From: Alphaproteobacteria bacterium
Lineage (GTDB): Bacteria; Pseudomonadota; Alphaproteobacteria; Rickettsiales; SXRF01
Assembly (NCBI GenBank): GCA_020049775.1
Contig: JAGVLO010000005.1
Location: 1-64,000, forward strand
Length of the DNA stretch: 64,000 nt
Reading direction: 5' to 3'
Below, piece by piece: positions 33,294-33,775 of this stretch (position 1 is the first letter of the stretch; every line of letters starts with the position of its first letter). The notes beneath the pieces were generated by a model. That model saw only the letters and a list, made by a program, of their open reading frames with translations, made no database searches and had not been told where the DNA came from. The translations under genes and the position numbers were made by a program.

Positions 33294-33369
33294 GGGGCAT
33301 TAGCTCAGCTGGTAGAGCGCTTCCATGGCATGGAAGAGGTCAGGAGTTCGACTCTCCTATGCTCCACCA
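33294..33369 (+). tRNA. tRNA-Ala (anticodon GGC)
   Basis: A 76-base cloverleaf with encoded CCA. The acceptor stem is GGGGCAT with ATGCTCC (one G-T pair), the D arm is GCTC..GAGC and the anticodon stem is CTTCC/GGAAG with the 7-base loop ATGGCAT giving GGC. The T arm holds GTTCGACTC. It reads GCC/GCT alanine codons. Its 3' end is the left copy of a 20-base repeat found again at 33746. Confidence 0.96.
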
Positions 33370-33434
33370 GCCTTCGCACTGCGTGCTTCGCTCGGCGAGC
33401 CTAGTCGAGCCGAGATAAGCACAGTAAGAAGGCT
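33369..33434 (+). repeat. 66-bp imperfect palindrome next to tRNA-Ala
   Basis: Arms pair in blocks: AGCCTTC (33369-33375) with GAAGGCT (33428-33434), GTGCTT (33383-33388) with AAGCAC (33417-33422), and CTCGGC (33391-33396) with GCCGAG (33409-33414), around a central CTAG. It starts at the last base of the tRNA CCA. There is no T tract, so a simple terminator role is doubtful. Confidence 0.7.
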
Positions 33435-33473
33435 GTCGCGCCGTAGTGCAACGAAGGCGGACTGTATCAAGAT

Positions 33474-33713
33474 ATGAAATATGTATACATCCTCCGCAGC
33501 ACGGCTTTTCCTGAGCATTACTACACAGGCGTTACCAGCGACCTGAAAGCGCGCCTGACAAAACACAATGCAAAAGAAGTGCCGCACACCTCTAAATACG
33601 CGCCGTGGGAATTAAAAACCTATATTGCTTTCTCGGATGAAAAGCAGGCATTCGCCTTTGAACAATATTTAAAAACCGCCTCCGGCAGGGCGTTTGCAAA
33701 GAAACGGCTTTAA
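33474..33713 (+). CDS. GIY-YIG domain mini-protein
   Basis: 79 aa consisting only of a GIY-YIG nuclease fold. YVYILRS and YYTGVTSDLKARLTKHN carry the paired Tyr and the catalytic Arg region; PHTSKYAPWELKTYIAF and FEQYLKTASGRAFAKKRL complete the family pattern. Such stand-alone proteins are common and spread erratically among proteobacteria and others. No known substrate. It has no separate promoter that I can see and lies inside the tRNA-bracketed segment. Confidence 0.9.
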   Translation: MKYVYILRSTAFPEHYYTGVTSDLKARLTKHNAKEVPHTSKYAPWELKTYIAFSDEKQAFAFEQYLKTASGRAFAKKRL

Positions 33714-33775
33714 AATAAGGGTGAGTGGCCAGACGGCCACGAATCACTCTCCTATGCTCTGCCAGTTCTGCCCCC

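Follow-up and report, generated by a model that had tools for sequence, protein, structure and literature searches.

The window analysed here is a 64,000-nucleotide stretch of a rickettsial alphaproteobacterial genome (assembly GCA_020049775.1, contig JAGVLO010000005.1, positions 1 to 64,000), and all features described at its tRNA-Ala site lie on the plus strand. The tRNA-Ala(GGC) gene was called at 33294..33369 by ARAGORN and by Rfam (RF00005, 63.9 bits), and its CCA (33367-33369) anchors, on the left, an element of about 350 bases composed of a structured leader and a very small GIY-YIG nuclease gene (P+GIY). The leader, P, is defined as the stretch from the CCA to the start of the GIY open reading frame, and its structured part (33370..33463) consists of a stem 1 and a hairpin 2. 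The arms of stem 1, 33368-33375 (CAGCCTTC) and 33428-33435 (GAAGGCTG), enclose an inner hairpin, with 68 bases from end to end, and the pairing uses the CA of the tRNA's own CCA; hairpin 2 ends at 33463. The RNA fold of 33365-33475 reached -45.2 kcal/mol against a mean of -34.1 for shuffled sequences (z -3.3, with none of 200 shuffles as low), and in an Rfam search of the window P only the tRNA rose above the curated cut-off. The nuclease gene at 33474..33713 (PF01541, 1.6e-13) encodes a protein of 79 amino acids that has the catalytic domain only. Behind it lie a 28-base hairpin segment (33718..33745), which is the right-end remnant of another repeated structure termed element 2, and a copy of the tRNA-Ala 3' tail (33746..33765), which closes element 2. 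A first, sequence-only reading of this locus had reported a 20-base repeat of the tRNA end, a palindrome at the tRNA CCA and a 79-aa GIY-YIG protein as the only gene between the repeats. The repeat is real (33351-33370 against 33746-33765, 18 of 20 matches, spacing 395) and the palindrome is present; among open reading frames of at least 60 aa between the two copies we found only the GIY frame and one overlapping reverse frame, and no integrase. That reading had overlooked the CA of the CCA in the stem, and also that 33718-33745 is part of another repeated element.

The window protein scored 51.2 bits against PF01541 (cut-off 22.6), with the profile spanning residues 1-72 of 79. Residues Y5, Y17, G19, R27, H31 and E63 are conserved at 98-100% among 95 sequences, and Y5, Y17, R27 and E63 are those which we take to be catalytic. 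Judged by the PF01541 match and the conserved Tyr, Arg and Glu, the gene is a member of the GIY-YIG superfamily. The 79-aa protein has no separate DNA-binding region, as no other Pfam or NCBIfam family was found in it, and NCBIfam gave no family for it at E 0.01. The closest solved structure is the UPF0213 protein BH0048 (PDB 1zg2, E 0.00056), which is likewise a stand-alone GIY-YIG domain of similar size, although the match is remote. PHROG 5123, a homing endonuclease family with GIY-YIG motif, matched the domain start (residues 1-40) at E 0.0072, but this match is weak and partial and the phage proteins are longer (152 positions). The dN/dS ratio was 0.03-0.15 in 12 of 14 gene pairs (three of which had dS above 1), the remaining two pairs both including the window gene with saturated dS, and by this measure the nuclease is under purifying selection. 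Its nearest relative, at 86% identity, was found behind a tRNA-Val in a metagenome-assembled genome (MAG) named Rhodospirillaceae (L026). A tblastn search at E 1e-5 of 72,556 plasmid and 50,697 phage records found no relative, nor did a scan of viral contigs that reaches close relatives only.

Protein searches in 55 genomes of the order gave near and far relatives in 18 of them, the window's own genome included, at a total of 25 places, and the best 80 of 417 relatives were taken from named genomes, a sample that leans to Rhizobium and Bradyrhizobium. We kept 97 of 105 loci; those left out were L002, L016, L018, L019 and L025, which carry another small GIY family without P, L015 and L023, which are one broken locus, and the broken L017. 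Among these, L002 (G000:C7:207704-207901) is the second GIY-YIG gene of the window's genome, a 98-aa open frame of the other small family, with no tRNA called in the locus and no P seen. A tRNA lies on the same strand within 600 bases upstream of the gene at 87 of the 97 loci and represents 11 amino acids (Ala 57, Val 8, Pro 4, Leu 3, Ser 3, Tyr 3, Met 3, Asp 2, Lys 2, Arg 1 and Ile 1). Six further loci have a partial tRNA tail (assigned by eye), and only four have no assigned tRNA (L008, L045, L082 and L095), two of which, L008 and L095, still show a short sequence ending in CCA ahead of P. Integrase-like open reading frames adjoin the partial tails at L033, L036 and L037 (Rhizobium) and point to later islands. 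These frames, recognised by eye, lie ahead of a tRNA-Ala tail fragment which remains joined to P+GIY, and the islands seem inserted between the tRNA and the unit; the alternative, that these tails prove the transport of tRNA tails by the unit itself, was rejected.

The junction between tRNA and P is constant. P begins directly behind the last base of the called tRNA in 28 of 29 loci inspected, and L063 has no CCA there. A stricter test, in which the CCA and the immediate head of P must have an inverted copy (CA included) within 170 bases, was passed by 82 of 88 tRNA-flanked loci, L015 and L017 being included in this set. The same test was passed by 11 of the 40 tRNAs of the window's genome, the window's own among them, and some of these inverted repeats are ordinary terminators; the trait alone is therefore not special, since tRNA terminators can start at the same place. 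The first four bases of P, together with the CA before them, recur as their reverse complement within the leader that carries them in 46 of 65 distinct leaders, while the heads of other loci gave a match in 35 of 2268 trials. By this comparison, the P head and its inverted copy vary together. On a tree of 95 GIY proteins the tRNA label needs 28 changes, and the shuffled mean was 36.3, with none of 200 shuffles as low. As 28 lies between this mean and the least possible number of 11, the label reflects both inheritance and change, and on this tree the tRNA association is in part vertical inheritance; the tree is poorly resolved (79 columns), its two starred branches forcing only one or two changes per label. 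In L060 and L102 a P-like palindrome flanks the GIY gene on both sides, and in L060 it is a nearly full second copy. Close relatives of the unit also occur in MAGs named Acidobacteriota, Bdellovibrionota and Planctomycetota (L060, L069, L079 and L093), which reflects either horizontal transfer or MAG contamination.

Related genomes were compared at the same chromosomal sites. For the Rhizobium tRNA-Ala(GGC), 60 genomes were searched and the best 30 loci were read, with types set by eye: four carry type A (one of them in the query's own genome), five type A', eleven type B, which has a different P and a different GIY, and ten neither. The left junction is the CCA. The type A locus L050 and the type B locus L220 have right flanks that are identical over about 100 bases around units that differ, and the empty sites L231 and L240 have the tRNA side and the downstream gene that are common to A and B loci (L050, L213, L220 and L226). 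At the Bradyrhizobium tRNA-Tyr, P+GIY (in L041, L254, L255 and L257) and P alone (in L260, L265, L268 and L272) stand ahead of one and the same gene, a third type occupies L275, and L278 has a lone type-B P. Broken GIY genes were recognised by eye in both genera, namely at L220 and L224 (truncated) and L216 and L221 (seemingly without gene start) among the Rhizobium type B loci, and at L256 and L258 behind the Bradyrhizobium tRNA-Tyr. In genus g6 the tRNA-Asp is followed by P+GIY in G006 and G010 and by nothing in G013, the right flank of which differs. Eleven other genomes of the window's family were also searched with the window's tRNA-Ala: the best match stops at the CCA in eight (G001, G003, G004, G005, G006, G008, G009 and G010), runs five bases beyond it in G011, enters, in G007, a P that lacks GIY (L111), and in G002 is another tRNA-Ala with P (L151). 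The nearest sister, G001, which is of the same genus, has kept the window's left neighbour, lacks the unit and has other genes on the right. An empty site, which the earlier reading had suggested looking for in close relatives, was found in Rhizobium, where the same site with and without the unit has both flanks conserved, whereas the window locus is comparable on its left flank only.

P also exists without the nuclease gene. The covariance model of P (R1) was weak, with 9 base pairs, and a strict pattern of the type-A second hairpin was used in its place to survey 385 genomes of the class irrespective of the GIY gene. It gave 13 matches in 10 of the 385 genomes, and the reversed pattern gave 4 in the same genomes as a control. 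Eleven of the 13 lie within 100 bases behind a tRNA of the same strand (10 of 12 without the window's own), and the two matches without a tRNA are both in one genome, G209. A GIY start, sought by regular expression, follows P in five of the 11 tRNA-linked matches and is absent in six. In 14 genomes chosen as unit holders or their near relatives, 17 matches were found in 12 genomes, one to three in each, and relatives of the window's genome have P alone behind tRNA-Ala, Met, Leu and Val. Three Bradyrhizobium genomes each have P at the CCA of tRNA-Tyr, Ala(GGC), Ala(CGC) and Val(TAC). Among 16 Bradyrhizobium regions picked from P matches, ARAGORN called a tRNA in 14, all with P at the CCA, and these 14 copies of P are 75-95% alike despite their different tRNAs.

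The head of P is related to the last bases of the tRNA. Where P starts with GCC (type A), the tRNA ends in CCACCA at 70 of 73 loci, and with tRNA-Ala set aside the count is 15 of 18 (Val, Tyr, Lys, Met and Ile). The background, taken from the window's genome only, is 9 of 40 tRNAs, which gives a Fisher p of 2e-5 for 15 of 18; with the Bradyrhizobium tRNA-Tyr counted once it becomes 13 of 16 (p 1e-4), and the loci are not independent. Other P heads follow CCACCA at 3 of 14 loci. The preference of type A for CCACCA would be the target specificity of the unit.

Element 2 is the name that we give to a structured element behind a tRNA, ended by a copy of the 3' tail of that tRNA. In the window's genome (G000), a copy of the tRNA's own 3' tail within 400 bases and with a local score of at least 12 was found at 11 of 40 tRNAs: Leu(TAG), Arg(CCG), Gly(CCC), Gly(GCC), Ala(GGC), Gln(CTG), Pro(TGG), Asp, Lys, Pro(CGG) and one Met. 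Among 294 cross-tRNA control scores 95% were at most 9, the 99% point was 16 and the highest was 18.5; four of the eleven copies exceed the 99% point (Leu(TAG), Arg(CCG), Gly(CCC) and Gly(GCC)), a line that may be raised by alike tRNAs, and the end of tRNA-Lys was shifted by two bases by hand. The copies behind tRNA-Leu(TAG) (L191) and tRNA-Arg(CCG) (L179) are perfect over 27 and 21 bases and start 90 and 59 bases behind the respective tRNA. At both Gly (L160, L173), both Pro (L172, L178) and Gln (L185) tRNAs, the tail copy pairs with a strand at the start of the element, and several hairpins lie between the two; element 2 often stands behind a terminator-like hairpin, and a shorter form follows tRNA-Asp (L159). 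In relatives (L143, L144, L145 and L152) it lies behind Ser, Asp, Pro and Asn tRNAs (for Pro and Asn, identified visually by the anticodon) with neither P nor GIY between, and no gene was seen in the copies of element 2. Some letters of element 2 resemble a hammerhead; this candidate was dropped, and across six loci with element 2 or P, Rfam placed only the tRNA above its curated cut-off. The window segment 33718-33745 matches G008:C58 over 28 bases at 93%, where it stands behind a tRNA-Asp without P or GIY, and a similar segment lies behind the tRNA-Asp of the window's own genome. Because of this match to element 2 elsewhere, the window P+GIY is seen to have the CCA on its left and the leftover end of an element 2 on its right, and P+GIY probably arrived at this site later than element 2. 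Genus g6 also has an interspersed repeat of about 80 bases, found upstream of the tRNA-Ser in L013 (about 1180-1260, G006) and at about 30 places in G006, G010, G013 and G015.

These data bear on how the unit came to lie behind the tRNA. The sequence-only reading had taken the 20-base direct repeat as the mark of insertion of the GIY unit at the tRNA, and the repeat is indeed beyond chance (about 1.6e-6 expected for at least 18 of 20 somewhere in 1 kb), with further repeats at the GIY loci L014, L020 and L024. Nevertheless, insertion with a direct repeat is now highly improbable. The repeat is the right end of the gene-free element 2, as the bases before it match an element without GIY elsewhere; tail copies stand behind 11 of 40 tRNAs of this genome, and only at one of these, the window's Ala(GGC), is there a GIY gene, so that the tail repeat without the gene, named beforehand as the case that speaks against the claim, occurs at the other ten. 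The matching repeat that had been expected at each unit is clear at only 3 of 95 GIY loci (shuffle p at most 0.01, window included), or at four with L014, for which the repeat came from a separate comparison; for L014, L022 and L032 this test took a CCA further upstream as its anchor. Flank alignments in Rhizobium and Bradyrhizobium, read by eye, showed no tail copy at the right end and no target-site repeat. A repeated tRNA 3' end is by itself no mark of a gene inside the repeat.

Two other explanations accept the association with the tRNA end and differ in what moves. In one, P is the real element, a REPIN-like palindrome dispersed at tRNA ends, with the GIY-YIG protein as a resident helper that mobilises it in trans. 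The occurrence of P without the gene at several tRNAs, its several copies per Bradyrhizobium genome and the agreement of the P head type with the GIY type (by eye) and the tRNA end would all fit, but the copy number is low (one to three pattern matches in 12 of the 14 chosen genomes), a lone P may be what remains after gene loss, and GIY-YIG enzymes are to our knowledge hydrolytic and not known to join ends, so that we regard this explanation as unlikely. In the other, which we consider more doubtful still, the unit does not move at all and is a module useful to the host at the tRNA 3' end, inherited and sometimes lost, with P serving in processing or attenuation and the nuclease acting on RNA or on recombining DNA. 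Such a module would agree with the fixed strand and left junction, the stem that takes in the CA of the CCA, the tRNA terminators found at the same place, the purifying selection and the clustering of the tRNA label on the gene tree. It is difficult to reconcile with types A and B at one site between common flanks, with 11 amino-acid types and a scattered presence (strict P in 10 of 385 class genomes), or with a nearest relative that at 86% identity follows tRNA-Val while the window gene follows tRNA-Ala.

We favour, with a probability of roughly 0.6, the explanation that bacterial chromosomes carry in P+GIY a minimal element of the homing type, specialised in tRNA 3' ends. At the level of sequence the arrangement is plain: P runs from the base after the CCA on the strand of the tRNA, its stem includes the CA, and the nuclease gene follows P, while the right end of the unit is ill-defined. 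Mobility is what we infer from the comparison of sites: a given site in relatives may hold the unit, another type of it or none, and this gives the unit the appearance of a tiny mobile or homing element. The earlier proposal of a very small tRNA-end unit with the GIY-YIG nuclease as its only protein thus gains from its occurrence at many different tRNAs and its absence at the same site in relatives. In the homing-type explanation, the GIY gene would be expressed by read-through from the tRNA promoter, and the nuclease would cut or nick tRNA genes that lack the unit, close to their CCA. An occupied copy used as the repair template could then bring P, with or without the gene, to a new tRNA, and the conserved 3' half of the tRNA would guide this repair on the left, which could account for the fixed junction and orientation. 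P would subsequently block further cutting and outlive a decayed gene, and may thus be a lasting scar and perhaps a shield, the REPIN-like part of the system. Tentatively, the idea may be taken further: miniature units might use the CCA end of tRNA genes as an address, each combining a bare GIY-YIG domain with a cognate DNA or RNA hairpin that borrows the CA of the tRNA, the types choosing tRNAs by their last bases (CCACCA for type A) and the lone hairpin being a scar that marks and protects the site. If the homing-type explanation is true, a set of tiny GIY-YIG genes would gain a role and a testable target.

The P+GIY family is apparently undescribed so far, and no chromosomal tRNA-linked GIY-YIG unit with palindromes appears in the titles and abstract openings of the open-licence matches listed. 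Integrative islands with tyrosine integrases use tRNA 3' ends, and P+GIY shares this location; unlike them, it has no integrase, no att-type repeat of its own and no tRNA 3'-end copy as its boundary, the copy in the window belonging to element 2. Known homing enzymes have a separate DNA-binding domain, whereas the 79-aa protein has no DNA-binding region beside its catalytic domain. RAYTs are tyrosine transposases which are thought to mobilise REPINs in trans, and REPs are numerous. In layout REPIN/RAYT is nearest to P+GIY, with short palindromes dispersed without the gene and one nuclease-type gene beside them; it differs in that the P+GIY protein is a GIY-YIG enzyme and no tyrosine transposase, and that the copies are few and lie at tRNA 3' ends. 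The nearest described system overall is SegB of phages T4 and T6, a free-standing GIY-YIG homing endonuclease which needs phage recombination genes, cuts DNA of the tRNA region and is over-represented close to phage tRNAs of many isotypes (PMC13096335). SegB resides in phage genomes, whereas P+GIY is chromosomal and without a match in the 50,697 phage records; P+GIY also differs in its catalytic-domain-only protein of 79 aa, in being locked to the CCA and to one strand, and in its structured P. If the homing-type explanation holds, tRNA-linked homing, described for phage SegB, would be extended to cellular chromosomes.
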